Shown one piece after another: positions 3,743-34,136 of a stretch of 64,000 nt of DNA. Within the stretch, counting starts at the first letter, position 1. Each line of letters begins with the position of its first letter. Under the pieces are notes generated by a model that saw nothing but the letters and a program-made list of their open reading frames with translations, did no database searches and was not told the DNA's origin. The position numbers and the translations under genes are program-made. The DNA is from Roseobacter sp. MH60115 (GTDB lineage Bacteria; Pseudomonadota; Alphaproteobacteria; Rhodobacterales; Rhodobacteraceae). Location of the stretch: assembly GCF_015644665.1 (NCBI RefSeq), contig NZ_JADOBQ010000010.1:1-64000 (forward strand), written 5' to 3'.

Positions 3743-5344
3743 ATGATGACAAAGATTTTCAATCCAGCGCCGTCTTTGACAGATCTTCGTGTGAACCCGA
3801 CCGGGCTTTTCTGGTTCGGGCTGCTGGTGATCGGCGCCCTGCCCGTCTTCTGGATGGGCCTGGCCTCGCTTCTGTCGGCCTGGAGCACACCGGAATACAG
3901 CCACGGGCCGCTTATCCCGCTGATTTCTTTGTATCTTTTCCTCAGAGAGCTGCGCAACGCCCCACCCGACAGGCTGCATGCGCCCGTGGATCGCCGCCCC
4001 GGGCTGCTGGTGGTGCTGGCCTCCCTGATCCTGGGCATCTTCGGCAATCTGGTGCAGATCCCCGACATCATCACCTATGCCTTCATCATCTGGGTCGGTG
4101 GCGTGGTGCTGACCTGCTTTGGCTGGCAGCGCGGCAAACACCACCAGCTGCCGGTGCTGCATCTGGTCTTCATGCTGCCCCTGCCACAGTTTCTCTATTG
4201 GAAACTGACCATTTTCCTGCAGGGCGTCAGTTCGGAACTGGGCGTGTGGTTCGTGGCCCTTGCCGGGGTGCCCGTCTACCTGGAAGGCAACATCATCGAT
4301 CTGGGGGTCTACAAGCTGCATGTGGCCGAGGCCTGCTCCGGCCTGCGCTACCTCTTCCCGATCCTCAGCTTTTCCTACCTGACGGCGATCCTCTACCGCG
4401 GGCCGATGTGGCACAAGGCACTGCTGCTGCTGGCCGCCGCCCCCATCACGGTCTTCATGAATTCCTTCCGCATCGGCGTGATCGGCGTTCTGGTCAACAG
4501 CTACGGGATCGAACACGCCCAGGGCTTCATGCATTTCTTCGAGGGCTGGATCATCTTCCTGGCCTGCATCGGCATCCTGTTCCTGATGGCCATTGCCCTG
4601 CAGCGGCTGACCCCGAACCCGCTGCCGTTGGCGGATGCCATTGATCTGGACTTCCAGGGCTTCGGCGGCCAGTTCAAGAAGTTCTTTGCCCTCTCCAGCG
4701 CACGCACCCTCGTGGTCACCGCGCTGATGACCACGGTGATCGGCCTGGCCTTTGTGCTGGCCCCCTCCCCGCAGCGTCAGCATGTGGACCGCGACAGCTT
4801 CCAGCTGTTCCCCCGCGATCTGGCGGGTTGGTCGGGCTCCATGCGGTCACTGGACCCGGAGATCGAACGCGTTCTGGGCGCCAGTGACTACGTGAACGGC
4901 ACTTACCACAACGCCGATGAAGCGGCCTACGTCAACTTCTTTGTCGCCTATTACGACAAGCAGACAGAAGGCTCCGGCATTCACAGCCCGGAGGTTTGTC
5001 TGCCGGTCGGTGGCTGGGAAGTCTTCAGCCTCGACACCCATCAGGTCACCATCGCAGACACGGTCTATGGCACCTTCGACGTGAACCGGGCAGTGATCCA
5101 GAAAGGCCTGTCCAAGCAGCTGGTCTATTACTGGTTCGAACAGCGCGGGCGCCGCATGACCAATGATTTCGCCGCGAAAGCGACCGTTGTCTATGACAGC
5201 CTCGTCAAAGGCCGCACCGATGGGGCGATGGTGCGCTATGTGACGCCCATTGCCGAAGACGAGAGCGAGGCGGACGCGGACGCCCGCCTGCAGCGGTTCA
5301 TGGGGGTCAGCCTGGCACGGCTGCCCCGCTTCGTGCCCGAATAA
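3743..5344 (+). CDS. xrtD: Exosortase D (XrtD, VPLPA-CTERM-specific) with fused EpsI domain
   Basis: This 533-residue protein has two parts. The N-terminal part (about 1-310) is a multi-pass membrane exosortase with the catalytic triad visible: Cys198 in [10 protein letters not shown], Arg243 in MNSFRIGV and His264 in FMHFFEGW. The C-terminal part (about 330-533) is a periplasmic EpsI-type domain with the FxVxYY and [10 protein letters not shown] motifs. This fused layout is known for the XrtD family of alphaproteobacteria, which recognises VPLPA-CTERM tails. A matching substrate lies at 23559-24281. The enzyme cleaves the sorting signal at the inner membrane and probably couples the protein to a glycan carrier. 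It closes the plus-strand EPS operon and is convergent with the next gene, 6 bp away. Confidence 0.92.
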
Positions 5345-5350
5345 TCCGCC

Positions 5351-6469
5351 TCAGGGCGCCAGCACTGTGATCCCGCGCGCCGCCAGCCGGTCGCGGGAGC
5401 GCTGCAGGATCGCCTCGAGTTCCGCAACACTCTTGGCGCTCTGCCAGACAATCATCTCGGCACAGTCAAAGCTGCCCACAAAGGATCCGGCATCGAAATG
5501 CACATCCCCCAGGGCGACATTCACCGCCCGCACCGTACCTCTGCCCGCATTGCCTGAGCTGACGATACTGGTCCCCAGCGTCCCGCGGAAATAGACATGC
5601 TCCCCCGTCGCACTGAGCGAGACCGCCAGGAAATAGAAGGCGTCGAGCGGCGAGCTGTTGTCCAGCTCGACAATCTCGGTCCCGCCCTTGTTGCGCACAT
5701 GCAGATCGTTGGTGTCCCAGGTGAACGGAGACCAGCCTGCCTGCTCGACCCCTGCCCCGCTGTCCATGACACCCCCCAGAATGGCCCGTGAGGCCCCCTG
5801 AGGGCGCCGTACAACGGCACAGAAGGTAATATCGGCACTATCTGCCACATGGCTCAGCAAACCGTTCCCCTGGCCCAGAATGCTCAGGTAGCCGCTTGAC
5901 CGGGTGGGCTGCGCGCCATTGGCGGTCAGCGCCTGCCCGGTGATCATGTCACTGTCCGTGACATTGTCGGTGCCAAAGAACCAATGCCCCTGCGCATCGG
6001 CTTCCGCCTCCGCCGGGATGGCGAGCGAGAAAGGTGTGCCCGAAGCGGTGGCCGAGAAGCTGCCTGTTCCGACCGCCGTGACCGCGGCAACCCGGTAGGT
6101 ATATGCCGTGCCGTTTGTCAGGCCGGTGTGGGTGAAGCCCGTGTTTGCGGAGACGCCATCCGTCACGGCGGCAAAACCACTGCCGCTGTCGACCTCGATG
6201 AGGTAATCCGTGATCGCGCTGCCGCCATCGGCAGGCGCGGACCATGTCAGGGTGATTTCACCATCGCCCTCGGTCACCGAGAGATCCGCGACCTGATCCG
6301 GCAAGACAGCGCTCGCGGTCGCGATGGTGATGGTGGCCGGCGCTTCGTCAGAGAGGGCCTGCACCGTGTATGTGCCATCCGGCAGCAGCCCGCTGACGTT
6401 GAAAGGGACATTCCCCGCCAGTGTCGTCACCGCACCGGTCGAGGTATTGCGAAATGAAAAAGTGGGCAT
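5351..6469 (-). CDS. Leaderless exoprotein: shared N-terminal module, FN3 domain, LamG/concanavalin-like domain
   Basis: The ATG at 6469 follows a GGAAGGAAG ribosome site and lies just past the stop of the upstream esterase gene, giving 372 residues; the longer frame upstream is not needed. Residues 1-50 form a module starting MPTFSFRNTSTG that recurs in the genes at 7472 and 30620. Residues about 55-150 are a fibronectin type III domain (ITLTWSAPADGGSAITDY, NGTAYTYRVAAV). Residues about 170-372 look like a LamG/concanavalin-type beta sandwich. No signal peptide is present, so export would have to use a leaderless route, or the protein is assembled into a particle. It is the last gene of a four-gene operon. 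The function is probably glycan binding; nothing catalytic is seen. Confidence 0.8.
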   Translation of the reverse strand: MPTFSFRNTSTGAVTTLAGNVPFNVSGLLPDGTYTVQALSDEAPATITIATASAVLPDQVADLSVTEGDGEITLTWSAPADGGSAITDYLIEVDSGSGFAAVTDGVSANTGFTHTGLTNGTAYTYRVAAVTAVGTGSFSATASGTPFSLAIPAEAEADAQGHWFFGTDNVTDSDMITGQALTANGAQPTRSSGYLSILGQGNGLLSHVADSADITFCAVVRRPQGASRAILGGVMDSGAGVEQAGWSPFTWDTNDLHVRNKGGTEIVELDNSSPLDAFYFLAVSLSATGEHVYFRGTLGTSIVSSGNAGRGTVRAVNVALGDVHFDAGSFVGSFDCAEMIVWQSAKSVAELEAILQRSRDRLAARGITVLAP

Positions 6470-6470
6470 G

Positions 6471-7472
6471 TCAGCTTCCTTCCATGACAGTTGTACCCAC
6501 CACAATTGGCGTGGGAACGTCGGTGTAAGAGTGAATTGTTTGATCTGCGATCTGCCATCCGTCCGGCACGTTCTGGTCCGCGTTTGCCAGAGCGGTGGCG
6601 TAGCGCGCGCCCAGGGTGCGCATGGAGGCCGCATCGAAATGGATGCCATCAAAGACGCTCAGCCCGGTGCTGGCGGCATAAGACGAATAGGCCACCCGGT
6701 TGGGCGTATCCTCAATGCCGGCCTGTACGGTCTGACGGTTTGAGTTCCCCGCGACCCAGGGCGGCGCCAGCCCCCCCAGAACAAAGGGCGTGCTGTCATC
6801 TGCGGCCGCGATCCCGCTGCGCAACGCGGCAATCATCGCATCCTGCGCCGCTGCGTGCGCGCCAGCGTCCCCGGCTGTCTCCGCATCCGTCTCCCCCTGA
6901 TGCCACAGAATGCCGCGGAACAGAAAATCCGGGTGCGCCGCCATCAGCGCGTTGCTCCGGTCTACAGCATCCTGAAACAGATCGTTGCCCGGGTTCCAGC
7001 GGTTGTTCTGGAAACCGGATCCGCCCCGTGCAGCGGGGACAAGCACCAGATCCACATCAGGATGCTGCGCCAGGTAATCTATGCTGAACTGCAGCGCCCA
7101 GCCCATCGCGCCGGGCAGCCTCTGCGTGCCGTGATCCAGTGGCCGTGTCGCGGGGATCAGCACCTGATCGTCATGTGACGTCAAAAACGACGCATCCGCA
7201 TTGTCCGGGCTTCTGCTCCACTGCCGCACGTTGCCCGGCCAGTCCGCCCCGCCGTCAAACGCAACACGGCTGGTGGCGTTCGACTGGCCTGCCAGCAGGA
7301 AAACATGGGTTGTGCGGTTGGAAGAGACCGTGAGCACGTTATCCGCCCACGGGCTGACGGTGGCCACCTGCCATGTGCCTTCGCCCACAACCCCTGACGC
7401 GTCAAAGGGCACGGTACCCGATGCCCGGATCAACGCACCTGTCACGGTGTTGCGAAAAAGAAAATCTATCAT
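6471..7472 (-). CDS. SASA/SGNH carbohydrate O-acetylesterase with shared N-terminal module
   Basis: This 333-residue protein begins with the module MIDFLFRNTVTG (about 1-50) and continues with a sialate O-acetylesterase-like SGNH hydrolase (pfam SASA type). The nucleophile block is LLAGQSNA with Ser64, a WHQGETDA block lies mid-protein, and the catalytic Asp275/His278 are in DGIHFD. These proteins remove O-acetyl groups from polysaccharides. No signal peptide is present, which is unusual for an esterase acting on extracellular glycan. The start lies 5 bp after the stop of the Ig-like gene upstream, and its stop is 1 bp before the ATG of the LamG gene, so the genes are co-transcribed. It may trim acetyl groups added by the OafA-type transferase at 21586. 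Confidence 0.85.
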   Translation of the reverse strand: MIDFLFRNTVTGALIRASGTVPFDASGVVGEGTWQVATVSPWADNVLTVSSNRTTHVFLLAGQSNATSRVAFDGGADWPGNVRQWSRSPDNADASFLTSHDDQVLIPATRPLDHGTQRLPGAMGWALQFSIDYLAQHPDVDLVLVPAARGGSGFQNNRWNPGNDLFQDAVDRSNALMAAHPDFLFRGILWHQGETDAETAGDAGAHAAAQDAMIAALRSGIAAADDSTPFVLGGLAPPWVAGNSNRQTVQAGIEDTPNRVAYSSYAASTGLSVFDGIHFDAASMRTLGARYATALANADQNVPDGWQIADQTIHSYTDVPTPIVVGTTVMEGS

Positions 7473-17894: not shown

Positions 17895-20534
17895 TCAGGC
17901 CAGATCAAAGACACCTTCTGTCATTGTGAACCATGCCAGCTTTTCCACCGCATGGGTGATCTCGCTGTCATAGGATTCTTCCTCCTCGACGCGCACCGAA
18001 ACGCGGCCATCGGAGCCTCTGTCATAGCGCAGTCCCGAAGGGTCGGTCCCAATGAGCGTCTGCATGTCGGCAAAGAAGGCTTCATTGCCGTCCAGGACCG
18101 TGCCGGTGTTGGTATAGTTGTGATCTGCGTTCACAAAGCCTCTCTCGAAGATGGAGCTGCCGTCGGCAATATCCAGCGCGACCCAGTAGAGGTTCTCATC
18201 GTCGATATCTCTGACGGTGTTACGATCACTTTCCTGGGCCTGCAGTCTGAAGTCGAAGGAATCCGCCGAGATATCGTCCAGACGGTGCGTGATGGCACGG
18301 TCTTCCGCATCGCCGGTCAATTGCGCAAACACCATTGGCTTGTCGTCAAACCCGTTCAGGGCAACGGTACCGCCATCGGTGGTCTTGGCATCCGCCTTGC
18401 CGAAGGAGATTTTTGTGCCATCGGTCATGACGTGGTCGCCAACGCTGCCGGCCATCCAGCTGATGTTCACGGGGATATGGTAATCGTCCAGGTAATCCCA
18501 TTCATCGATCTGGAATTCGAAACCGTTCTCGGTCACGTTACGCACACGCACTGTCAACGGCTGGTCTCCGTCGGAGGAGGCCGGACCCATCACAACTGCG
18601 GCATTCTCGATGGCCTGGTCGAAGCTGATGCTGTGCCACTGGTTGGCATCCATCTGTTCCACCCGCGTATTCCCGATCTCGATATGCGCGTCGGAACCTT
18701 CCACCGGATCTACAGGAGGATCTACCGGATCCACGGGGTCGGGATCGGTATCCGCGCCGGTGTCAGGGTCGGGGTCCGCTGCGGGGGCCTTGTCAATCTC
18801 CGTCATGTTGACCGTGTAGGACTCATTGCTGGAGGCAGAGATGTTCCCGTAGTTTGCTTTCAACTGGGCAATCACATCGGCCACGTCCAGAGTCGCATCG
18901 TTGAACTGCAGCTTTTCGATATTGATCAGCGTGTTTTCATCACCTGCCTGATTGAAGATCCGGATGGGTCCACCATTGGCAGCCTCCGCGTCATAAACAA
19001 TCTGGAAGTTCTCGATGACGTTGCTGAAAACGGCGCTGTCAGTTCCTTCGCCGCCGTCAAGCGTATCATTGCCGCCACCGCCGTTCAGCTTGTCGTTGCC
19101 GCCCATCCCGTAGATCATATCGTTCCCGAGACCACTGGAGATCTCGTTATCGGCGGCGTTGCCGGTGATGTTGTCGTCACCCGACCCGGTGATGGCATTC
19201 TCGATCACGGTATCGCGGGCGATCGAGACATTGCCCTTCTTGCCGTTGAGGTCGGAATAGGTCTCCTGGCGCATGTCCAGCCGCTGATCGGCAGAGCGCG
19301 AGCCCAGGTTGATCAGGTCGATGCCGCCATTGTCGTGGATCATCACCGAGCGCGAGCTGGGCAGGTCCATGGCGAACTGGCCGGTGTTGTTGCCATCGCC
19401 ATAGACGCTGTCGCCGGTATGCACGCTTGTCGGTGTGCCGTAGAGGCTGTGGATCGCCGCGACATCGCCCAGCTGTGGGGTCGCCAGACGCAGTTTGCTG
19501 GCATCGGTATTGGGGTTATCGTTCTGGTCAAAATACGACATGACCGTGGTCTGCCAGCTGTCATTGGCGAAATGCGCATTCGAGCCGAAGCCGGCGCTGC
19601 CGTTGTAGTTGCCGGAGTGACCCAGGCCCAGGGCGTGGCCGATCTCATGGATGTAGGTCTGCAGGTAGTAGGAGCCGTATTTCGTCCAGCCGTCATCGAT
19701 GTTGATGGAGGCGCTCTGGATCGTGTTGCCGATCGTGGTCGAGCTGGCATAGGCGCCGGCATTGCTCTCACCAAAGGTGATATCCGCCGTCGACATGCTG
19801 CGGCCGCCGCTGATGTTCAGCTCGTAGTTGCCGGTGTTCGTGCCGTAGCCGCTTGCCTCGATGTAGAAGGTGCCGCTCTGACCGGCGGTGAACTCGATCT
19901 CGGAGGACCGGTCGCCTGCGGCGCGGTCGTCATTCTGGGCAACACTGTCGCCATTGGGGTTGATCAGCTTCAGGAAAGTGTCGCTGATCTGACCGCCGGA
20001 TCCGTCACCCGACATGGTGATGGTATAGGTCTCGCCGGCTTCCAGCTCGACTGCGATCCAGTCCTTTTCATTGGCGCTGCTGATCGATCCCTTGAACTGT
20101 TCGCCCACATCCAGCTGTGCCGATGTGCTGGCATTGCCGGCGGCGTCCGAACCTTCCTGATGGATCGCGGTTGGCGCGCTGTCGACGGTCGACTGGTTGC
20201 TGATTTCGACGAATTCCAGGCCGCTGACGGCTGTCCAGGCGTCCAGCGCCTGACGGGCGGTCGCGGCACCGGTTGTGCCCAGGGCAGAGAGGTCCACGGT
20301 CAGGACGTCGCCGGTCTGGACGTCAAACGACCGCGGCGCGCGGCCGGTATCGCTCCAGTACCCTTCGGTCAGGTAATCGGCGATTTCATCGTAGGAATAG
20401 GTCGGCAGCCCACCGGCATCCCCGGATGAGGCAGAGCCTGAATGGTCGATGGAAGAGCCGTCTTCGAGGCTTTCCAGGTCGTGGTAGTCATAGGTTTCAA
20501 CAGTGGGGTTCAGTGTCTGGCAGAGGGTACACAT
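17895..20534 (-). CDS. Serralysin-like M10 metalloprotease with PPC-like insert and RTX repeats
   Basis: The ATG at 20534 (MCTLCQTLNP) gives 879 residues without a signal peptide. A zinc-protease domain begins at about 45-112 and is interrupted by a PPC-like beta domain (about 126-242, DWIAVELEAGETYTITMSG). It resumes with HEIGHALGLGH, with zinc ligands His296, His300 and His306, catalytic Glu297 and a VMSYF Met-turn. RTX nonapeptides (GNDMIYGMGGND, GGGGNDTLDGG) lie at about 450-505, followed by a C-terminal region of about 370 residues with a beta-rich repeat. This is a calcium-dependent exoprotease for type I secretion, with the transporter at 31.1-34.1 kb the likely exporter. Confidence 0.9.
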   Translation of the reverse strand: MCTLCQTLNPTVETYDYHDLESLEDGSSIDHSGSASSGDAGGLPTYSYDEIADYLTEGYWSDTGRAPRSFDVQTGDVLTVDLSALGTTGAATARQALDAWTAVSGLEFVEISNQSTVDSAPTAIHQEGSDAAGNASTSAQLDVGEQFKGSISSANEKDWIAVELEAGETYTITMSGDGSGGQISDTFLKLINPNGDSVAQNDDRAAGDRSSEIEFTAGQSGTFYIEASGYGTNTGNYELNISGGRSMSTADITFGESNAGAYASSTTIGNTIQSASINIDDGWTKYGSYYLQTYIHEIGHALGLGHSGNYNGSAGFGSNAHFANDSWQTTVMSYFDQNDNPNTDASKLRLATPQLGDVAAIHSLYGTPTSVHTGDSVYGDGNNTGQFAMDLPSSRSVMIHDNGGIDLINLGSRSADQRLDMRQETYSDLNGKKGNVSIARDTVIENAITGSGDDNITGNAADNEISSGLGNDMIYGMGGNDKLNGGGGNDTLDGGEGTDSAVFSNVIENFQIVYDAEAANGGPIRIFNQAGDENTLINIEKLQFNDATLDVADVIAQLKANYGNISASSNESYTVNMTEIDKAPAADPDPDTGADTDPDPVDPVDPPVDPVEGSDAHIEIGNTRVEQMDANQWHSISFDQAIENAAVVMGPASSDGDQPLTVRVRNVTENGFEFQIDEWDYLDDYHIPVNISWMAGSVGDHVMTDGTKISFGKADAKTTDGGTVALNGFDDKPMVFAQLTGDAEDRAITHRLDDISADSFDFRLQAQESDRNTVRDIDDENLYWVALDIADGSSIFERGFVNADHNYTNTGTVLDGNEAFFADMQTLIGTDPSGLRYDRGSDGRVSVRVEEEESYDSEITHAVEKLAWFTMTEGVFDLA

Positions 20535-20582
20535 TATAGGGGTCTTTCGCGGTTCAAAGCGCACCTGACGTGAGGCGTTGGC

Positions 20583-21585: not shown

Positions 21586-23460
21586 ATGCACTATCGCCCC
21601 GACGTAGACGGCCTGCGGGCAGTGGCTGTTTTATCCGTCATTTTCTACCATGCAGGGATCGTGGTTTTCAGTGGTGGCTTCATTGGCGTGGACGTCTTCT
21701 TTGTCCTGTCGGGCTATCTGATCACGTCACTGATGCTGAAAGACATGTCGGCCGGACGCTTCAGCCTGCTGCATTTCTACGAACGCCGGGCGCGCCGCAT
21801 CCTGCCTGCCCTGATCGTGGTGGCGCTTGTCTGCCTGCCTTTTGCCTGGGTGTTGATGGTGCCGGCCCAGTTTGTCGATTTCTCCCAGAGCCTGGTTGCT
21901 GTCGCCACTTTCTCCTCCAATATCCTCTTTCTGCTTGAAAGCGGCTATTTCGAAGGGTCAGCGGAACTCAAGCCCCTGCTGCACACCTGGAGCCTGGCAG
22001 TTGAGGAGCAGTTCTACCTGCTCTTCCCGCTGCTGCTGATGGCGCTGTGGCGGTTTGGCCGGTCCCGTGTCGTGCAGGTTCTGATCACCATCCTGCTGCT
22101 CAGCCTGGCGTGGAGCGAGTGGGGTTGGCGGCATCTGCCGGATGCCAATTTCTACCTGCTGCCGTCGCGCGCCTGGGAGCTGCTGGCCGGCAGCCTCTGT
22201 GCCTTTGTGCTGCAGGGGGGGCCGGCCCGGGCCCGCAACCTGCCGGCGGCGGCCGGTCTGGGGATGATCCTGCTTGCCGTCTTCCTCTATGACACCAGCA
22301 CGCCGGTGCCATCGCTTTATATGCTCCTGCCGGTGGGGGGGACCTGCCTCGTCATCCTCTTTGCCGGGCCCGGCACCTGGGTTGCTGCGCTGCTCTCCAC
22401 CAGGGCGTTGGTCGGTATCGGCCTGATCAGCTATTCGGCCTATCTGTGGCACCAGCCGCTTTTCGTCTTTGCGCGGTTGCAGCTCTGGCTCCCGCCGACG
22501 CCTGCAGCCATGCTGGGGCTCTCTGCGGTCAGCCTGGTTCTGGGCTGGATCAGCTGGCGCTATGTGGAACAGCCCTTCCGGCGGGCGGGGCCGCTGCTGG
22601 CAGCGCGCCCGCAGGTGTTCACGGCAAGCGCTCTGACCAGTGCCCTGATCCTTGCCGTCGGGCTTGTGGGGCATTTCGCCAATGGCTTTCCGAACCGGCT
22701 GCCTGCCGGGTACGAAATACGGCAGGAGCGGCTGGCAGAGCTGCGCGCGGTGCGTCATGCCGACATCCGGTCGGGGGTCTGCAATTTCAACCGCAAGGGT
22801 CCGCACCGGACGCTGGAGGACTTCCTGGGCCACTGGGATTGCGCGCCCGAGGAACAGGGCGCCCGGGCGCCGCGCCTCATCGTGGTCGGGGACAGCCATG
22901 CGGCGGATATTTCAAGTGCGCTGACCCTGAATGGCATAGACCACATCCAGATCACCAGTTCCGCCTGTCCGCTCCTTCTGGACAAGGCGGGGCTCCCGCC
23001 CAATTGCGCAGCTGTCCGCACCCTGCTGGACAAACACCTGCGGGCCGATGACTGGGTCATTCTCGCCAATCAGTTCCAGCGCGACGAGGCGACACAAAGC
23101 TATATCCGCAATGTGATGCAGGAATGGGCGCCCCGCAGTGCCAAGACATTATTGCTCGCGCCGCGGTTCGAGTTTCCCAGGTTCGAAAACGCCTTTCTGA
23201 TGCAGGGGCCGGAACGGTTGCATAATCTGCCCCCCGAAACGACCGTATGGCAGGACTTCACCGAGGCCGTCGCCACGCTGGACGTGCCCAAGACCATGCG
23301 GGTGATCGACACGGTATCCCTGCTCTGCTCTGATCTGGCCCATTGCACCGCGGTGAAGGATGGTCAGCTGATGTATGTGGACAGCCACCATTTTTCCGGT
23401 CAGGCGGCCAGACAGGTCGGCGCAGGTCTGGCCCAGCATCTGCAGGCCGAGGGCTGGTAA
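21586..23460 (+). CDS. OafA/YrhL-type acyltransferase with C-terminal SGNH domain
   Basis: This 624-residue membrane protein starts with the acyltransferase-3 hallmark YRPDVDGLRAVAVLSVIFYH, containing the catalytic-type His, followed by GGFIGVDVFFVLSGYLI and about ten membrane helices up to residue 370. The C-terminal part (about 380-624) is an SGNH hydrolase-like domain with VVGDSHAADISSA and the Asp-His pair in YVDSHHFS. Such two-domain enzymes move acetyl groups across the inner membrane onto polysaccharides. It is a candidate to O-acetylate the EPS, opposing the esterase at 6471-7472. The ribosome site at 21586 is weak (AGG directly before ATG). Confidence 0.9.
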   Translation: MHYRPDVDGLRAVAVLSVIFYHAGIVVFSGGFIGVDVFFVLSGYLITSLMLKDMSAGRFSLLHFYERRARRILPALIVVALVCLPFAWVLMVPAQFVDFSQSLVAVATFSSNILFLLESGYFEGSAELKPLLHTWSLAVEEQFYLLFPLLLMALWRFGRSRVVQVLITILLLSLAWSEWGWRHLPDANFYLLPSRAWELLAGSLCAFVLQGGPARARNLPAAAGLGMILLAVFLYDTSTPVPSLYMLLPVGGTCLVILFAGPGTWVAALLSTRALVGIGLISYSAYLWHQPLFVFARLQLWLPPTPAAMLGLSAVSLVLGWISWRYVEQPFRRAGPLLAARPQVFTASALTSALILAVGLVGHFANGFPNRLPAGYEIRQERLAELRAVRHADIRSGVCNFNRKGPHRTLEDFLGHWDCAPEEQGARAPRLIVVGDSHAADISSALTLNGIDHIQITSSACPLLLDKAGLPPNCAAVRTLLDKHLRADDWVILANQFQRDEATQSYIRNVMQEWAPRSAKTLLLAPRFEFPRFENAFLMQGPERLHNLPPETTVWQDFTEAVATLDVPKTMRVIDTVSLLCSDLAHCTAVKDGQLMYVDSHHFSGQAARQVGAGLAQHLQAEGW

Positions 23461-23558
23461 GCGGCTATTTGCATGTGACATCGCTGACCCTTTGAACGAT
23501 GCTGATAGAGTGGCAAGCCTCTGGCGCGTGCCGAAGCTCATTGGAAATGGAAAGACTT

Positions 23559-24281
23559 ATGAGATTTTTCATATCGGCAGTTTTGGCGCTGCTCATGCTG
23601 GGGCAGGGCCGTCCCGTTTCCGCAGTGACAATTGAACCACTGACCAGCTTCACCTATGAATACTACTCATATAGCTATGATGTCAGCTATTCGTCCGGCG
23701 AAGGTGTGCGGTTCCGGGACAAAACAACCCTCAGGTCCTCTTCGTATATCGCATTTTCTGTAGACGGCGTTTGGGAAACATCACCGCTGGCTCAGAAAAC
23801 GATCTCTTTCGACGTCGGCGTTATTCAGGATGTCGGCGTGCCCGGAGTGTCCGGGGCTTACGGCCTTCAAGGCTATGACAGCGTCGTCGGGCAGATGAAA
23901 TTTGATCGCAACGGCGCAATTGTCCTATGGGATATCTACTCCAATGTTGGCCATGGCAGCCGGTATTCCAGTTCGAGCACTGCAAGAGATGCTCTGACGC
24001 CGCGCAGTGGTCCGCTTCTCGTGGACGGCAAGCCGCTCAAGGTGTTCGAGCAGGTGAGAGGGGAGTTATCTTCCATCACAAGTATCTACAGCACCCAGCG
24101 GGGCTTCTGGCTCGGAACCCGGATGGTCGATTGTTATGTGTATAACGATCAGGGTCAGATTCTGGACGTATATGATTGTACCACCCGGCCGATTGATGCG
24201 GCGGTTGTGCCGCTCCCCGCCTCGGCGCTGCTGCTTTTGTCAGGTTTTCTGCTGCTGGTGGGCAGAAGGCGCAGGGCCTAG
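23559..24281 (+). CDS. VPLPA-CTERM sorting-domain protein (XrtD substrate)
   Basis: The ATG at 23559 with GGAAAG upstream gives 240 residues: a signal peptide (1-22, ISAVLALLMLGQGRPVSA), a Tyr/Ser-rich extracellular part, and a C-terminal sorting tail. The tail reads VPLPA at about 217-221, then a hydrophobic helix (SALLLLSGFLLLVG) and a basic end GRRRRA. This three-part signal is the defining VPLPA-CTERM tail cut by XrtD, which is encoded at 3743. The mature domain has no recognised enzyme motif; it may be structural or adhesive. The protein should be processed at the inner membrane and released to the surface. Confidence 0.9.
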   Translation: MRFFISAVLALLMLGQGRPVSAVTIEPLTSFTYEYYSYSYDVSYSSGEGVRFRDKTTLRSSSYIAFSVDGVWETSPLAQKTISFDVGVIQDVGVPGVSGAYGLQGYDSVVGQMKFDRNGAIVLWDIYSNVGHGSRYSSSSTARDALTPRSGPLLVDGKPLKVFEQVRGELSSITSIYSTQRGFWLGTRMVDCYVYNDQGQILDVYDCTTRPIDAAVVPLPASALLLLSGFLLLVGRRRRA

Positions 24282-27018: not shown

Positions 27019-27067
27019 AACAGGGCGGGGGGCGAACTGCTGTCACGCGGTCCCCGCCGCCCTGTTT
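27019..27067 (-). terminator. Terminator of the 1184-aa gene
   Basis: Perfect 10-bp arms AACAGGGCGG (27019-27028) and CCGCCCTGTT (27057-27066) form a hairpin that begins at the stop codon of the minus-strand gene. A T-rich stretch follows it on that strand (TTACTTTGTG). The loop is long, about 28 nt. Confidence 0.5.
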
Positions 27068-30000
27068 ATATGCGCTCGATTTTGAGGCTGATGATCCCCA
27101 GTCCCGCCCCGGCCGTGCCACCGCCCACGCTCGACAGGAACAGATCGAAGGTGATGCGCTTGCCCTCAGCGGAGGCGGGAACGGTATGGATAGCATCCTT
27201 GATCCTTACGACCCGCGGATCGACGCCGGCGGTATAGGTGCCAATCTCGGAAATGGTAGACCCTGCGCGGATACTGGCGCGTGTCTTGCCTTTTGATCCC
27301 GTGATGATTTCTGCATTGACGCGATACCGGTCTCCGGCCCGTCCGAACTCCTGGGTCTGAATACGGAGTGTGGCATTTGATCCGTCCTTGCTGTTGAAAA
27401 CATAGCCCGGAGTTGAGGCCCCGCTGCTGTAGAAGTCGTTCGACAGGGATTTGGTTCCATTGGCGATGGCAATGTCATCCCAAAGGTCGCGATGATCGAG
27501 GCGGAAGGCATCGGTAAATTCGGTGTCCATCAGGACATTGGCGGACAGGGTGACGCGTTGCGGCATGAAGATACGCGGGCTGACCGCCTCTGTTATCCCA
27601 TTGGCGTTGCTGGCTTCGATCACGACCTCCAGCCAGGTGTCATTCGGCAAGGTCGAATAGTCTTCCTGCGTGCGGGTGTATTTGTTGACCTCGGCCCAGT
27701 CTCCGCCCTGATCCAGGGCAAAAGGCGCGTATTCGGTGATATCCATGCCGTTCCGGCGCAGCTTCCAGCGGTAGGTCGGCACGGGGGAGCCGGTCCAGTC
27801 GCCGATGGAGGGGTAGATGTCGACCGCCTCGCGCGGAATTGTGCCGCCGTCCGGGATGACATTGAAAAAGGGCATCCCGGCGTCGAGGAAGGGTCTGTAG
27901 GTCACGGCCGGCGCACGTGTGCTGACCGGGGCGGCGGCGGGGCTGCCGCCGGTCGGGGTGACGACATAGACCTCCGGGCCGACGCCACCGCGGTTTTCGG
28001 TCCAGATCCCCTTGCGGCCCTGTGTGTCCACATAGCGGATGCCCATGTAGTATTTCGCCCCGGCCATGAGACCGGTCCACCAGCCGGTTTTGTCCAGACC
28101 GGTCATTTCGGTCCAGGACCGCTGGTCGAGGGAATAGCGGATGTCGGCATGCGCGTAGGTGCCCGAGACCCCGTCGCGCTGATCGCTCCAGTCCCAGGAC
28201 ACGCCGTTCCTGATGGCCAGAAACTCCGCATCGCTCCCAAGCTTGGGCAATTGCTTGGGCGCTTCGGTATAGCGCGGACCCGCAAAATCCCGCCAGGCGT
28301 TATAATACCGGCGCGCATCGCCCCGGGTGTGCACCTCGCGGTAGGCATCCAGGGTGGCAATCGGCGCCGAGGTCGGGTTGTCCGGACCGATGGGCTCGGC
28401 GTTGCCGGTGATCGCCTCGATGCCGTTCTCGCCATCGGGACCGTTCTGCAGCAGGATCATTGCCAGCGTTGCCAGGGCGGCCCCATCCTGGATCAGGGAT
28501 GAGTAACGTGCATTGATCGCGGCGCCCTTGGCGTCGCCGTAGATATGGGCGGTCCCCACATGCTCCGGCAGGAACGGCGCGTTATACTGATCATTGCTGT
28601 CCGGATAGGCGCCGGATTTGCCGATCCGTGATTGCGGGACATAAGCGTGACGCCCCGGCCCCAGCTCCGATGACAGCGTGTTGCGGGCTTTTTCCAGCAG
28701 ACCGGGGTCCTGCAGCAGAAAGCCGCCAAAATACATGTAGGGAATGAACCCGAGCGCCTGTCCCGCGCCCTGCCGTCCGATCCAGCCCGCATCGACAATG
28801 GCTTCGAGGTCCAGCGCGTGGGTGATCATGATATAGGCAAGCTCACGTTTCTGCTCCAGCGTCAGCACATTGCTGTGCAGCGCCGCCCAGGCCAGTTTGC
28901 GCCGGTCCTGCCATTGGGTGGAATAGTTGTCATCCGGGCCGAAAACATTCTGCAATTCGCCGTTATCCGTCCCGTAGAACGCATGATCGAGGGCGGTATT
29001 GGCCAGGACCGTGTCATAATCGAACAGATAGCTTTGCGGGGGCGTCAGATCGCGCAGCACGTCCATGTGCAGGGTCCGGGCAAACTTCAGATGCCGGGTC
29101 TTGTCCAGCGCTGTGATGGCCGGGCGGAAGGCGTCTGCGGGCAGCGGGCGCGGCATGACGGAGAAGACTGCATAATCCCCGATCGCCCACTGCTGTGAGG
29201 GGGCATCGGCCCAGGGACGCTGGGCCTGATCAAGACGGATCGACTTGACCAGCGAGGTGGCGGCACCTTGCGTGATCTGCAGCGGGCCACTCACCGCCGG
29301 GTCGATATTGAGCTCAGGCACATAGGGCACCCGTGTCGTGGCATCGTTGCCATTGGCGATGAGTTCGTCAAAGCCCTGGGTCCGGCCCTGCCGGAACCAG
29401 CTGGGATCGCGCATCATGCCGTTGCCGATGGTATTGCCGCCCGGTTGCACGCCCGAGGCGGGGGTGACGCTTGTGATGGCAAAATCGGATGCGGAGATGA
29501 TCACCGGCCTGCCGTCCACGGTCTGGCCCACGGGCATGGGGCGATCAAGCGTCAGCGTGACACCGTTGAAGGAAACGGTATCCGACAGGGTTGTCGCCAT
29601 CGGGGGCGGCAGGTCTTGCGTCACCGTGGCCCGGTGCAGCTCGCTCCAGGCGCCGGGCCTGCCGCGTGCATTCACTGCCCGGACCCGCACGTCATAGGTC
29701 AGGTTGGCAAGATCCTGCAGATAGGCGCTTGTGTGATCAAAGAACTCGGGCAGGACGGTGCCGTTTATCTCGACCTGATAGCCCTGCAGGGGCGGCTCCT
29801 GCTCCGATATGGCAGAGCGCCAGTAGATGCCGAGCACCCCGGCGGCCGGGATCAGCGTGACATTCTGGACCTGGCGTGGCACATCGTAGAGCGGCAGGGT
29901 GCCGGCGTCTTCGGTGACCGGTTGATTGACGTAGATGCGGGCATTGCCAAAGGCCCCGCCCGGCAGATGCGTGGCTTCCGGAACACCAGGCGATATCTCT

Positions 30001-30620
30001 TGCACAACGGCACCTGTGCCGCCGGTGGACAGATAGCGCCCGCTGTCGGAGCCAAAAAGCCCGCTCGCCGCCGCAAGCGATGTCACCGAGGCAAGCCAAA
30101 TTCTGTTGATCCAGACCCGAACGCGCACCCTGCCATCACCCAATTGCGTGAATTCACCAATATACTGTCCCGCGGCGGGCACATCCTCCGCCTTGACCAC
30201 TGCGATTGCACAATCGTCATCCAGCTCAGACATACCACTTCCGCAGCGCGAAACCAGATCGCCATTGGCCCGAAAGCCGATGTAAAGCCCCAGCGTGACA
30301 CCGCCCTGTTCCAGGATCAGCCCGCCACCCGACCCGTCAAGATCAGAGAAATCGAAGGCAACGACAAGGCTGCCCTGACCGTCCAGACTGTTTGTGGCGA
30401 TGTTCTGCGTGCCCTTCGGCAGATTGTGCTGCATCGGCTGTGCGAGCGTGCGTTCCGGGTGATACCCGGGCGGGATAAAGAGGGGCGCCGGTGCCTCGGC
30501 GGACAGGCGTTGCACGGTATAGGCCCCGCTGGAAAGCCATTCGCGCAGCTGCAGGGGTGTTGGACCCTCTATTTCTGTTCTGGTGCCTGTCAGTGTGTTT
30601 CGTAAAGAAAACCGAGGCAT
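27066..30620 (-). CDS. Large leaderless exoprotein: shared N-terminal module, LamG-like, FN3 and (alpha/alpha)-like regions
   Basis: This 1184-residue protein has no signal peptide. Residues 1-50 repeat the module seen at 6469 and 7472 (MPRFSLRNTLTG). A LamG-like part follows (about 75-220), then an FN3 domain (about 245-340, LGIYWRSAISEQEPPLQGY). The central 400 residues are mostly helical (YIMITHALDLEAIVDAGW, DGAALATLAMILLQNG), reminiscent of toroid polysaccharide lyases/hydrolases but without a motif I can name. FN3-like domains follow at about 850-1050, and a beta-sandwich, carbohydrate-binding-like domain ends the protein. An AAGGAA ribosome site precedes the ATG. It may bind or degrade a glycan. 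It is divergent from the type I secretion genes. Confidence 0.75.
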   Translation of the reverse strand: MPRFSLRNTLTGTRTEIEGPTPLQLREWLSSGAYTVQRLSAEAPAPLFIPPGYHPERTLAQPMQHNLPKGTQNIATNSLDGQGSLVVAFDFSDLDGSGGGLILEQGGVTLGLYIGFRANGDLVSRCGSGMSELDDDCAIAVVKAEDVPAAGQYIGEFTQLGDGRVRVRVWINRIWLASVTSLAAASGLFGSDSGRYLSTGGTGAVVQEISPGVPEATHLPGGAFGNARIYVNQPVTEDAGTLPLYDVPRQVQNVTLIPAAGVLGIYWRSAISEQEPPLQGYQVEINGTVLPEFFDHTSAYLQDLANLTYDVRVRAVNARGRPGAWSELHRATVTQDLPPPMATTLSDTVSFNGVTLTLDRPMPVGQTVDGRPVIISASDFAITSVTPASGVQPGGNTIGNGMMRDPSWFRQGRTQGFDELIANGNDATTRVPYVPELNIDPAVSGPLQITQGAATSLVKSIRLDQAQRPWADAPSQQWAIGDYAVFSVMPRPLPADAFRPAITALDKTRHLKFARTLHMDVLRDLTPPQSYLFDYDTVLANTALDHAFYGTDNGELQNVFGPDDNYSTQWQDRRKLAWAALHSNVLTLEQKRELAYIMITHALDLEAIVDAGWIGRQGAGQALGFIPYMYFGGFLLQDPGLLEKARNTLSSELGPGRHAYVPQSRIGKSGAYPDSNDQYNAPFLPEHVGTAHIYGDAKGAAINARYSSLIQDGAALATLAMILLQNGPDGENGIEAITGNAEPIGPDNPTSAPIATLDAYREVHTRGDARRYYNAWRDFAGPRYTEAPKQLPKLGSDAEFLAIRNGVSWDWSDQRDGVSGTYAHADIRYSLDQRSWTEMTGLDKTGWWTGLMAGAKYYMGIRYVDTQGRKGIWTENRGGVGPEVYVVTPTGGSPAAAPVSTRAPAVTYRPFLDAGMPFFNVIPDGGTIPREAVDIYPSIGDWTGSPVPTYRWKLRRNGMDITEYAPFALDQGGDWAEVNKYTRTQEDYSTLPNDTWLEVVIEASNANGITEAVSPRIFMPQRVTLSANVLMDTEFTDAFRLDHRDLWDDIAIANGTKSLSNDFYSSGASTPGYVFNSKDGSNATLRIQTQEFGRAGDRYRVNAEIITGSKGKTRASIRAGSTISEIGTYTAGVDPRVVRIKDAIHTVPASAEGKRITFDLFLSSVGGGTAGAGLGIISLKIERI

Positions 30621-31092
30621 TCAAATTCCTTTGTCTTGGTGGACGTTGATCGAACTTTGCCTGATGCGGCGCCGGACGGTATGAGAAGCGCCGTCCGGTT
30701 AGTACAATTGGAATTCATGGTCAGTCTTTATGAGGTCAGCCCGCAGGCCGTCTTGTGTGATACGCGGGCCATCTCAAGGTCCCGTTAACCGTGCGTGCTC
30801 TGGCGCCGCCAATACCCCTTTTTGACAGGCCTGCGCGCGGTCCGCACCGGGGGCGAACCGCTCTGCTTTCGGGGAGAATTGCGCGCATTTATCCGCAGGA
30901 CGCAGGTGATCTGAGCGGGCACCGACGGAAGGACTTGCGGATAAGGGGTGGATTTATCATTCTTTACAGGTTTTCAGCGAAAATCCCGCGGGACCACTCG
31001 GTGGGAATATGCTCGGTCATGCAATAAGACCGTGACATTTGGGCCGTCGGCGATCAGGTTGCGCGGAAATTATTCAATGTGGCGATGAACAG
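30621..31092. promoter_or_regulatory. Divergent promoter region with 9-bp inverted repeat
   Basis: No gene is seen in these 472 bp between the 1184-aa gene and the type I secretion operon. It contains TTATCCGCA at 30889-30897 and its exact inverse TGCGGATAA at 30936-30944, 38 bp apart. The same 9-mer, within the 11-mer ATTTATCCGCA shared with the first copy, lies upstream of the ABC transporter at 49254. These could be sites for a common regulator. Confidence 0.4.
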
Positions 31093-32826
31093 ATGAAAGC
31101 GAATACCAAACCGGGTTTTCCCGAGCTGCGCGAAGCCCGTCGGGCAGGCATCTGGCTTTTGTGGGCCGTGTTCCTGTTCAGTATCTTCGTGAACCTGCTG
31201 ATGCTGACCGGCCCGCTGTTCATGCTGCAGGTCTATGACCGCGTGCTGGGATCGCGCTCCGAAGAGACCCTGGTGGCCCTCTTTGCCCTGGTGGGGGCGC
31301 TCTACGGGCTGATGGCGCTGCTCGATTATGCGCGCGGGCGGGTGCTGGCGCGCTTTGGCGCACGCTTTCAGGCGCAACTGGATGACCGGGTTTTCAGGGC
31401 CGTGCTCAAACGCGCTCTGTTGCCCAAGGAACGGGCAAACCCTGCCGGCGGGCTGCGGGATCTGGAATCGGTGCAGGGTCTTTTCACCTCGCCGGTGATG
31501 CTGGCGCTTTTCGACATTCCCTGGACGCCGTTCTTTCTGGGCGCGATCTTCATCTTCCACCCCTGGCTCGGCTGGGTGGCGATCTTTGGCGGCGGGATGC
31601 TGGTCATCATCACGCTGCTGAATGGGTTTCTGACGCGGAGTAAGACAATGGAGGCACAGCACGCCTCCAGCCATGCCAGCGGCTTTGCCGAACAGGCCCG
31701 CCGGTCAGCCGAGGTTGTCCGGGCGCAGGGGATGGGTCCTGCGGTTTCCGCGCGCTGGCACAAGATGCGCGACGTCTCTCTTGAGCAGACCGTGAAATCC
31801 AGCGACTGGACAGGTCTGTTTTCCGCGACGACAAAGTCATTCCGGCTGTTTTTGCAGTCTGCCATGCTGGCCGTGGGGGCCTATCTGGTGCTCCGGGGGG
31901 AAATGACCGCCGGGGCGATGATTGCAGGCTCGATTCTGCTGGGTCGCGCGCTGGCGCCGATTGAACAGACCATCGGGCAATGGGCCATGGTGCAGCGCGC
32001 GCGGGCAGCCTGGTCCGCGCTTGGCGCCTTGCTGGAAACCACACCCGAGGCCCCGAAAGCACTGACCCTGCCGCAGCCGGAGGCGAATGTCTCCTTTGCC
32101 GGCGTGTCGGTCATGTCCCCGGGGGCCAAGTTCCCGACCCTGAAGAGCGTCTCCTTCTACCTGGGGGCAGGGGAGGCCCTGGGGGTCATCGGCAAAAGCG
32201 GGTCGGGCAAGACGACACTGGCGAAAACCCTTTTGGGCCTGACACATGTGGCCACCGGAGAGGTCCGGTTCGGGGGGGCGACGCTGGATCAGTACGATCC
32301 CGATGATCTGGGCGCCTACATCGGCTATCTGCCGCAGAATGTCGTCCTCTTCTCGGGCACGATTGCGGAGAACATCGCCCGCATGTCGACCGAGCCCGAT
32401 GAGGCAAAGGTGGTCGAAGCTGCAAAGCGCGCCAATGCCCATGAGATGATCCTGTCCCTGCCGGACGGCTACGACACGGTTGTGCAGGGGGATGACAGCC
32501 AGCTGTCGGGCGGGCAGCGCCAGCGCATCGCCCTAGCACGCGCCTTTTACGGGGACCCGGTCCTGCTGATCCTGGATGAGCCCAATTCCGCACTGGACAA
32601 CGACGGCTCCGTAGCCTTGAACCGGGCGGTGCGTGAATTCAAGGCCAGCAACCGGGCGGTCATCATCACCACGCATCGCCCCTCCGCGATTTCCGAATGT
32701 GACCGGCTGGTGGTCATTGACGGCGGACAGATCAAGGCCGACGGCCCCCGCGACGAGGTGCTCAAATCCATGGTGAGCAACGTCCAGAACATCAAGCAAT
32801 CCATCGCAACGGCAAAGAAATCATGA
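31093..32826 (+). CDS. Type I secretion ABC transporter (PrtD/HlyB-like permease-ATPase)
   Basis: The ATG at 31093 is chosen because the protein MKANTKPGFPELREARR then aligns with the usual start of PrtD-type proteins; 577 residues. It has six membrane helices (about 20-300, with FMLQVYDRVLGSRSEETL) and an ATPase domain with Walker A GKSGSGKTT (367-375), signature LSGGQRQR (471-478) and Walker B VLLILDEPNSALD. There is no N-terminal C39 peptidase domain. PrtD-type transporters export leaderless RTX proteases and adhesins, which matches the substrates at 17895 and 58073. It is coupled to the adaptor by an ATGA overlap. Confidence 0.93.
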   Translation: MKANTKPGFPELREARRAGIWLLWAVFLFSIFVNLLMLTGPLFMLQVYDRVLGSRSEETLVALFALVGALYGLMALLDYARGRVLARFGARFQAQLDDRVFRAVLKRALLPKERANPAGGLRDLESVQGLFTSPVMLALFDIPWTPFFLGAIFIFHPWLGWVAIFGGGMLVIITLLNGFLTRSKTMEAQHASSHASGFAEQARRSAEVVRAQGMGPAVSARWHKMRDVSLEQTVKSSDWTGLFSATTKSFRLFLQSAMLAVGAYLVLRGEMTAGAMIAGSILLGRALAPIEQTIGQWAMVQRARAAWSALGALLETTPEAPKALTLPQPEANVSFAGVSVMSPGAKFPTLKSVSFYLGAGEALGVIGKSGSGKTTLAKTLLGLTHVATGEVRFGGATLDQYDPDDLGAYIGYLPQNVVLFSGTIAENIARMSTEPDEAKVVEAAKRANAHEMILSLPDGYDTVVQGDDSQLSGGQRQRIALARAFYGDPVLLILDEPNSALDNDGSVALNRAVREFKASNRAVIITTHRPSAISECDRLVVIDGGQIKADGPRDEVLKSMVSNVQNIKQSIATAKKS

Positions 32827-34136
32827 GCGCAGCCCCACAGACACCTCGGAAATGGACCGCAAAGGGCCCCTTGTTCATCGGGGCTTTTGCCCTGCTGGTG
32901 CTGGTGGGCGTGTTGGGCGTGTGGAGCGTGCAGGCCCGCATCGCAGGGGCTGTGATCGCCTCTGGCATGATCCAGGTGGAATCGAACCGCCAGGTGCTGC
33001 AGCACCCGCAGGGCGGCGTCGTCGGCGCGCTCTTGGTGAAAGACGGGGATCAGGTCGCGGCCGGGGACGTGGTGCTGAAGTTTGATGACACGCAGCTGCG
33101 GTCCGAGCTTGCGATCATCGAGGGGCAGCTTTTTGAAATCCTTGCCCGCAAGGCCCGCCTGCAGGCAGAGCGGGACGGGCTCTCAGAGCTGCCGGTGTCG
33201 GAGGAATTGCAGGAACTGGCTGCCGAGGACCCTGCGGTGCAGGCCCTGATCGACGGTCAGGCGCAGCTCTTCGAGGCGCGCGCCACATCCCTGCAGCAAA
33301 GTGCCGAGCAGATCATCGAACAGATCGCGCAGGCGGAAAATCAGATTGATGGGGCGTCCGCACAGCTCGAGGCGCTGGAGACGCAGAAAGGTCTGATCGA
33401 GACCGAACTGGCCGACAGCCAGCAGCTCTTTGAAAAGGGCCTGGCGCCCGTGTCGCGCGTCTCTGCCCTGCAGCGGGAGCAGGCGCGGCTGCTGGGCGAG
33501 ATTGGCAGCATCACCGCAAGCGTGGCGCAGTTGCGCGGTCAGATCGCCGCGCTGAACATCGAACGCATCGCCCTGACCTCGCGTCTGCGCGAAGAGGCGA
33601 TCACCACCCTGCGCGACCTGCAGTTTCAGGAAGTGGAACTGGTGCAGCGGCGCCTCAGCACCAAGGATACCCTGTCGCGCATGGACCTGCGTGCGCCGGT
33701 CAGTGGCGTGGTCTATGGCAGCCGTGTCTTTGCCCTGCAGTCGGTGGTCTCCCCGGCCGAGGCCATCATGTATATCATTCCGCAGGACCAGCCGATGATT
33801 GTGTCCTCGCGGGTCGATCCCATCCATGTGGATCAGGTCTATGTGGGACAGGAAGCTTCCCTGCGCTTTGCCGCCCTCGACCAGCGTATGACACCGGAGA
33901 TTTTCGGGCAGGTGACAAAGCTGTCTGCGGATGTCTTCATCGATGAGGCCACAGGCGTGTCCTACTACCAGGTCGAACTGATCCCGAAGGAGGGTGAGAT
34001 GGCGAAGCTGAACGGCCAGATCCTGTTGCCGGGCATGCCGGTCGAAGCCTTCATCAAGACGGCCGAGAGATCACCGCTCAATTATCTGGCCAAACCGCTC
34101 ACCGATTACTTCACGCGCGCCTTTCGCGAAGGGTGA
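32823..34136 (+). CDS. HlyD-family periplasmic adaptor of type I secretion (PrtE-like)
   Basis: This 437-residue protein has one N-terminal membrane helix (about 16-38, FIGAFALLVLVGVLGVWSV), then a lipoyl-like strand pair (SNRQVLQHPQGGVVGALLV). A long coiled coil (about 130-270, rich in Glu/Gln/Ala/Leu) follows, and a C-terminal beta-barrel domain (DLRAPVSGVVYGSRVFALQSVVSP, VYVGQEASLRFAALDQR). This is the membrane-fusion partner that links the ABC transporter to an outer-membrane TolC channel. No tolC gene is in the window, so a channel from elsewhere must be shared. Confidence 0.93.
   Translation: MSAAPQTPRKWTAKGPLFIGAFALLVLVGVLGVWSVQARIAGAVIASGMIQVESNRQVLQHPQGGVVGALLVKDGDQVAAGDVVLKFDDTQLRSELAIIEGQLFEILARKARLQAERDGLSELPVSEELQELAAEDPAVQALIDGQAQLFEARATSLQQSAEQIIEQIAQAENQIDGASAQLEALETQKGLIETELADSQQLFEKGLAPVSRVSALQREQARLLGEIGSITASVAQLRGQIAALNIERIALTSRLREEAITTLRDLQFQEVELVQRRLSTKDTLSRMDLRAPVSGVVYGSRVFALQSVVSPAEAIMYIIPQDQPMIVSSRVDPIHVDQVYVGQEASLRFAALDQRMTPEIFGQVTKLSADVFIDEATGVSYYQVELIPKEGEMAKLNGQILLPGMPVEAFIKTAERSPLNYLAKPLTDYFTRAFREG

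Follow-up and report, generated by a model that had tools for sequence, protein, structure and literature searches.

Why should proteins with wholly different bodies begin with the same short stretch of sequence? The question is raised by a 64,000-nucleotide stretch of the Roseobacter sp. MH60115 genome (contig NZ_JADOBQ010000010.1, positions 1 to 64,000; hereafter the window), in which three predicted proteins of 372, 333 and 1184 residues (aa) share an N-terminal module of about 50 residues. Two of them are encoded in an operon whose first gene specifies a homolog of the head spike base of RcGTA, the gene transfer agent (GTA) of Rhodobacter capsulatus. We consider it probable that the module is a virion docking domain of GTA head spikes, by which carbohydrate-active parts are plugged onto a short adaptor protein, with C-terminal tails linking a chain and the 1184-aa protein joining in trans. 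A preliminary description of the window had spoken of a docking or export tag; the docking half of that interpretation is likely, given the protein that heads the operon, while the export half is not supported in this spike context.

One N-terminal module on three different proteins

The three open reading frames (ORFs) lie on the minus strand, where the preliminary description had placed them: g4 (372 aa, 5351–6469) and g3 (333 aa, 6471–7472) in the operon, and the 1184-aa protein outside it (27066–30620). Their modules occupy 6308–6469 in g4, the stretch first noted, and residues 1–54 of both g3 (7311–7472) and the 1184-aa protein (30459–30620). This third copy, said to lie more than 20 kb off, is 23 kb distant from the operon copies. 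When the first 65 residues of the 372-aa protein were searched against the whole genome, the other two proteins were recovered with expectation values (E) of 3e-8 and 3e-7, and the Smith-Waterman score of each of the three module pairs was reached by none of 2000 shuffles. The shared N-terminus is real, and its alignment over about 50 residues holds 13 invariant positions (M1, F4, R7, N8, T9, T11, G12, G19, P22, G32, V36, S40 and A43). By blastp in a small database of operon proteins, the 1184-aa module is closest to that of g4 (51% over 49 aa, residues 1–49; E 4e-8, or 1e-8 in the reverse direction), and g3 matches g4 at 41% over residues 1–51 (E 2e-6); the pair of 1184-aa protein and g3 is absent from the matches listed at E 1 or better.

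Behind the module the bodies differ, again as first described. Pfam assigns the body of g3 to the SASA carbohydrate esterases (PF03629, E 7e-31) and that of g4 to fn3 (E 7e-14), with a LamG-like domain below the cut-off (E 0.002); g4 also matches phrog_4390 (E 3e-20), and the 1184-aa protein has a weak fn3 match alone. No Pfam match begins before residue 46 in any of the three, and no known Pfam domain lies over module residues 1–45. For the three window copies a small sheet of four strands is predicted (residues 3–8, 14–18, 33–38 and 47–50). A known domain was rejected as the identity of the module, there being no match in Pfam, among PDB sequences or by Foldseek. The best viral Foldseek row was a pectin-lyase-fold protein of Rhizobium phage RHph_Y2_6 (probability 0.97 but E 0.32), and a row from Microbacterium phage Terij was treated as chance, since it matched near residue 245 of its protein and not at the N-terminus. 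From literature searches we know of no paper that describes the module; a multilocus GTA survey (Hynes 2016) may already report spike-gene neighbourhoods.

A probable spike operon and its putative adaptor

Four minus-strand genes make up the operon: g1 (86 aa, 8160–7900), g2 (140 aa, 7900–7478), g3 and g4. The product of g1, rightly called spike-base-like at the outset, is on sequence comparison homologous to Rcc01079 (GhsA), the head spike base of RcGTA: phmmer aligns its residues 3–82 with a chain of PDB entry 6tb9 (E 3.2e-11), the motif PSDSTDLAR is common to g1 and Rcc01079, and g1 matches phrog_12296 (tail fiber; E 3.8e-21). The start codon of g2 overlaps the g1 stop by 1 nt. Its product begins with MQLGLSVGV, a sequence resembling the peptide by which the head fibre of RcGTA is plugged into its base, continues with an immunoglobulin (Ig)-like middle that weakly resembles T4 Hoc (5vf3; E 1.3e-5 as the sum of two weak stretches), and ends in a C-terminal tail, ...PSPPAVTASIIEV. 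Judged by the pattern of alternating hydrophobic and small residues in that peptide, g2 would be a head-fibre adaptor plugged into the base.

The pattern recurs in other genomes. A base profile matched at E 1e-6 or better in 62 of 198 family genomes, at 69 places including the window's; 60 of the other 68 were fetched, and these, the window and 19 genus regions make up the 80 loci that were parsed, a few of the picks being clearly wrong ORFs. Sixty loci carry an ORF of at least 100 aa that starts between −10 and +55 nt from the base stop, and a strong alternating hydrophobic/small N-terminus is found in 35 of these 60 post-base ORFs, against 14 of 493 control ORFs (p 6e-28). SASA is fused directly to the gene-2 proteins of loci L072, L114 and L121, whose plug-pattern scores are 7, 6 and 5 of 8. 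Module and plug peptide thus look like alternative attachments for the same kind of cargo, as a docking function predicts. Only six post-base ORFs in the 80 loci are 100–159 aa long. Five of them precede a module; the sixth (121 aa, in L119) has no module after it and looks wrongly picked. After longer second genes following the base, no module was detected in these loci.

Among genomes of the genus, that of Roseobacter cerasinus also carries the operon, and its contig NZ_BLIV01000013.1 is collinear with the 3–15 kb part of the window. The ratio of nonsynonymous to synonymous substitution rates (dN/dS) between the two is 0.03 for g1, 0.16 for g2, 0.13 for g3 and 0.19 for g4, at dS 0.7–1.4, and the operon is under purifying selection. 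The paralogs do share one replicon, as they would if the common N-terminus were merely a recent duplication of coding sequence without function. Since the modules of g3 and g4 are conserved in R. cerasinus, with low dN/dS over both genes, and related modules stand at the same gene position in distant genomes, we give such a duplication hardly any credence.

The three proteins had also been called leaderless, and hydropathy bears this out: within the first 35 residues the top 10-residue mean is −0.1 to 1.1, compared with 3.2 for a leader-bearing protein of the window. By this measure, which is not that of a signal-peptide predictor (none was applied), no hydrophobic leader was found. Virion-type proteins leave by lysis and need no export signal, and the spike context explains the missing leaders. 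If the module served instead to export extracellular enzymes that modify polysaccharide, or to anchor them at the surface, the 1184-aa protein might be a substrate of the type I secretion genes at 31039–34136: an ABC transporter gene followed by a HlyD-like ORF (the latter by reading) lies divergent to its gene, and the cargo domains act on carbohydrate. Against this, type I signals are, as is generally known, C-terminal, and a serralysin-like M10 metalloprotease with RTX repeats (17895–20564, minus strand), on the same replicon as the type I secretion pair, is a more obvious substrate. An export tag would also leave unexplained the spike base and the plug-peptide protein that head the operon, and elsewhere the same SASA cargo follows a plug peptide. 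We rejected it on the absence of a leader by hydropathy and on the spike-like operon, and regard it as improbable.

Module copies in other genomes and the tails that precede them

The module is not confined to the three proteins, for copies occur in R. cerasinus and more distant ones in four other genomes. A profile of the three window copies found, among 19 genus genomes, copies in the window genome and R. cerasinus only, and among 295 family genomes, besides the window, five weak rows (E 0.003–0.009). Reading of the base operons revealed the same layout with related N-termini in L040 (genome G307), L044 (G309, two copies in tandem) and L088 (G001). When the five close copies were used to search 11,188 ORFs, the top outsider was exactly the N-terminus of L088 gene 3 (E 0.063), and the L088 module resembles each of the g3, g4 and 1184-aa modules (0 of 2000 shuffles each). 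A nine-row profile run on 394 family genomes brought up a copy in genome G330, which was outside the query (E 1.1e-6, or about 4e-4 after multiplication by 394); this module resembles those of g3, g4, L040 and L044 (0 of 2000 shuffles each). Its gene starts within the stop codon of the gene for a 198-aa Ig-like protein, and by reading the region holds exosortase-like and UDP-glucose-dehydrogenase-like genes. There were no matches better than E 0.2 in phage records and none in plasmid records or viral contigs. Four Paenibacillus rows from a scan of named genomes look like chance; the one checked, L155, is antisense to a sigma-factor-like gene.

In all, six genomes yield ten copies or probable relatives (window 3, R. 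cerasinus 2, L040 1, L044 2, L088 1, G330 1), those of L040, L044, L088 and G330 being assigned by weaker similarity. Seven follow a short protein with a C-terminal tail, two follow the esterase, whose tail is fainter, and the copy at 30620 stands alone. The proteins that precede module genes are short (96–198 aa), with the exception of g3 in the window and in R. cerasinus. Their tails end in TASIIEV (window), TASIVEV (R. cerasinus), AITVEIS (L040), TATDAIEIE (L088), NTDFSVEAA (G330) and TIIVEIA (L044, both in gene 2 and in the 96-aa gene 3).

Six of the seven tail-preceded copies are backed by mutual similarity of the tails, and one weakly. The R. cerasinus g2 tail resembles the gene-2 tails of L044 and L088 (0 of 2000 shuffles each), and the window g2 tail resembles that of L088 (29 of 2000). 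When 11,521 C-termini were ranked against the window g2 tail, the g3 tail came 9th for the window and 4th for R. cerasinus (12 and 3 of 2000 shuffles); the C-terminus of g4, the last gene, came 7784th and shows no likeness. The R. cerasinus g2 tail places its own g3 tail 11th. For G330, the tail is supported against L044 gene 2 (rank 68; 8 of 2000). Apart from their own members, which match by construction, the tail profiles found no ORF below E 0.4 among the 11,521. Tail similarity and module similarity are correlated (r 0.86; for five loci r 0.76, exact 1/120).

From these observations we would assemble the spike as follows. By homology, g1 would sit as a pentamer on the capsid vertices, and g2 would plug into it through the N-terminal peptide. 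The g3 module, to judge from co-occurrence and position, would dock on the C-terminal tail of g2, and the g4 module would probably dock on the tail of g3, the spike growing as a chain. The 1184-aa protein may use that tail too, docking in trans by its own module, and would then be an additional or alternative enzyme or lectin. Finally, the carbohydrate-active domains at the tip would, by their families, bind and modify the capsule or exopolysaccharide of the recipient. The spike base had been put forward as the partner of the module; the evidence points rather to the 140-aa g2, because the base-binding peptide sits on g2 and the C-terminal tail recurs just upstream of module proteins.

All the modules might, on the other hand, bind a single site, located for instance on g2 or the base, in which case the spike would be branched and not chained, and the tail would have no docking role. 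Three paralogous modules of one genome could use one site, support for the tail is uneven, and the tailspikes of Ackermannviridae are described as branched complexes with N-terminal linker domains. The gene-3 protein of L044, which lies between two others and consists of nothing but module, linker and tail, suits a link in a chain; g4, as the last gene, has no tail; and the tail profiles match no ORF outside their members at the threshold given above. A branched spike is possible, if somewhat doubtful to us. Returning to the chain, we offer one extension in the same tentative spirit: head spikes of Roseobacter GTAs may be open-ended, any protein that starts with the module capping the adaptor strand and some of the caps bearing tails themselves. 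A gene at any place, such as that of the 1184-aa protein, could then supply a new receptor-binding enzyme. As the cassette shares its plasmid with polysaccharide genes, a single plasmid would determine the coat of the recipient and also the specificity that matches it, for a particle whose body is encoded elsewhere in the genome.

Genome context, the 1184-aa protein and known systems

The window is part of a 105,407-base contig (C2) of a 4.76-Mb draft genome, called plasmid-like here for the repABC-like genes that it carries by reading. A GTA cluster lies on another contig, C3, with a GTA_TIM match (E 1.6e-155) and, by reading, a GTA-like gene order. As the single base gene detected in this genome is on C2, the head-spike locus of this GTA would, as far as the searches see, be on a plasmid-like replicon. 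Across the genus, GTA_TIM is found in 19 of 19 genomes and the spike base in 17. Five genus genomes (G303, G309, G297, G296 and G299; loci L048–L052) hold a second lineage of base genes, 39–41% identical to the window's and mostly on contigs over 4 Mb; no fibre gene was parsed after the base in L051 and L052. In L053, L054 and L047, a conserved hydrophobic protein of 113 aa (MTAAHIYFA/MTAAHLYFA...) follows the spike genes.

In the window the spike genes adjoin polysaccharide genes. The neighbours of the operon include exosortase and glycosyltransferase genes and, by reading, rhomboid-like and repABC-like genes. An EpsH-family exosortase with DUF3485 (3743–5344, plus strand; PF09721 E 8.5e-68, PF11984 E 1.3e-54) converges with the operon, and in the polysaccharide region lies an AT3 acyltransferase with an SGNH domain (21586–23460, plus strand; PF01757 E 3.5e-32), which from its family is a possible source of acyl groups removable by the g3 esterase. 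Besides the exosortase, the window encodes a 260-aa protein (23499–24281, plus strand) with the C-terminus VVPLPASALLLLSGFLLLVGRRRRA, which we take to be a VPLPA-CTERM-like sorting tail.

Such neighbours are enriched at base loci. We searched them with a panel of 15 polysaccharide proteins (ten from the window and five from L038) and found relatives at 32 of the 60 wider loci and 12 of 17 genus loci, the latter count omitting R. cerasinus and L038 and including L045 and L046, which are near-identical. Control stretches came from 20 genomes with long contigs, in each case from the contig that bears the base, and gave 0 of 20 (p 5e-6 and 3e-6); within those same 20 genomes, ten base loci had a panel match. 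In R. capsulatus, as stated in PMC10218006, the capsule genes are neighbours of the head spike genes and are regulated together with them, and it is this capsule to which the spikes bind.

The same surroundings bear on whether these are spikes of a GTA at all, or of a phage, a prophage or a remnant of one, the module docking them on a phage virion. The base family phrog_12296 does occur in 35 phage records, including phages of Rhodobacter, Dinoroseobacter and Ruegeria, which tells against a GTA assignment, and phage-like genes were read close to two genus loci (L037 and L043). Around the operon itself no phage genes were seen by reading, no phage-family scan of the neighbours having been made, and the neighbours are those named above. 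The presence of base and GTA_TIM across nearly all or all of the genus, purifying selection at the dS given, and the module's lack of matches in phage records and viral contigs likewise argue against the phage alternative, which we think unlikely.

The 1184-aa gene stands alone in the polysaccharide gene region, between a UDP-glucose dehydrogenase gene and the type I secretion pair. Searched as a whole at E 1e-6 against the other 18 genomes of the genus, its protein has no relative, and the gene stretch has no blastn match over 150 bases in R. cerasinus contig NZ_BLIV01000013.1, the sole contig compared. In its middle and C-terminal pieces, Pfam found no match at E 1. The central region is weakly like proteins of a Microcystis phage (E 5e-6) and of six mycobacteriophages (9e-4), and spike proteins encoded at other loci give short, weak matches (E 0.001–0.008). 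With its module, the protein may be an additional component of the spike, docking in trans. The gene is preceded, at a distance of about 50 bases, by a perfect 8-bp inverted repeat, CCGGACGG-N11-CCGTCCGG (30672–30698), which is single in the window and a possible operator. No clear upstream motif was common to the operon and this gene (34 of 500 shuffles were as good).

Several results weigh against a docking domain carried on tailed adaptors. The module has no known structural homolog (nothing below E 0.04 in a PDB profile search or below E 0.3 with Foldseek), and its structure model is only fair (pLDDT, the predicted local distance difference test, 70; pTM, the predicted template modelling score, 0.54), too uncertain for fold assignment. 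The three-row profile misses the L040, L044 and L088 copies at E 0.01. Window-type modules are not significantly similar to those of the L040/L044 type directly, save weakly, and not at all significantly for g3 and g4, so that G330 is needed as a bridge; the 1184-aa and G330 modules are not similar (1871 of 2000 shuffles). The tail is short, and the sequence evidence for its role is moderate, weak in one locus: the window g2 tail is not significantly like that of L044 gene 2 (375 of 2000), the R. cerasinus g2 tail places the window g3 tail only 397th, a profile of two g2 tails did not include the g3 tails among the 14 rows listed, and the G330 tail lacks support against L040 gene 2, L044 gene 3, window g2 and L088 gene 2. 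The idea that every protein preceding a module has the same tail is weakened by the G330 result, and the correlation of tails with modules is confounded by common descent. Moreover, g2 has no match to Rcc01080 among PDB sequences, where its matches are Ig-like Hoc and tail proteins, and 28 of the 60 wider base loci are without a panel match. The G330 module operon is headed by a different 77-aa ORF, the genome's own base lying about 5 kb off on the other strand. This ORF (L127, 648–881) runs into the start of the adaptor-like gene and occupies the position that a spike base would have; it has no Pfam or PHROG match and is possibly a second base family.

GTAs transfer host DNA among kin, but outside R. 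capsulatus little is known of how the particles of a producer are matched to the coats of its relatives. With a polysaccharide cluster and head spike genes on one plasmid, the receptor would be coupled to the protein that binds it, and kin targeting would become directly testable. A short docking module with a matching tail would, in addition, serve as a small assembly tag for virus-like particles.

Among known systems, the branched tailspikes of Ackermannviridae (with XD and T4 gp10-like N-terminal domains) likewise combine several receptor-binding proteins, conserved N-terminal linkers and variable carbohydrate-active bodies. They differ in being on the tail and not on the head and in having gp10-like linkers; among the PDB-profile and Foldseek rows listed for the module, with its weak fold model, no gp10-like or XD domain and no match to these linkers was found. 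TspA of RcGTA is also a GTA-borne protein that degrades biofilm, but it is a tailspike of the baseplate. The closest comparison is the RcGTA head spike (base Rcc01079/GhsA, fibre Rcc01080/GhsB), of which the putative spike described here would be a variant not seen before, the GTA head spike itself being already known. Both have a homologous base, a second protein whose N-terminus is an alternating hydrophobic plug peptide, and genes outside the main GTA cluster beside polysaccharide genes. Whereas RcGTA has one fibre of 325 residues, here a 140-aa adaptor with a C-terminal tail is followed by two separate module-bearing spike proteins, with a third encoded elsewhere, and the genes, one of them with an esterase domain, lie on a plasmid-like contig.
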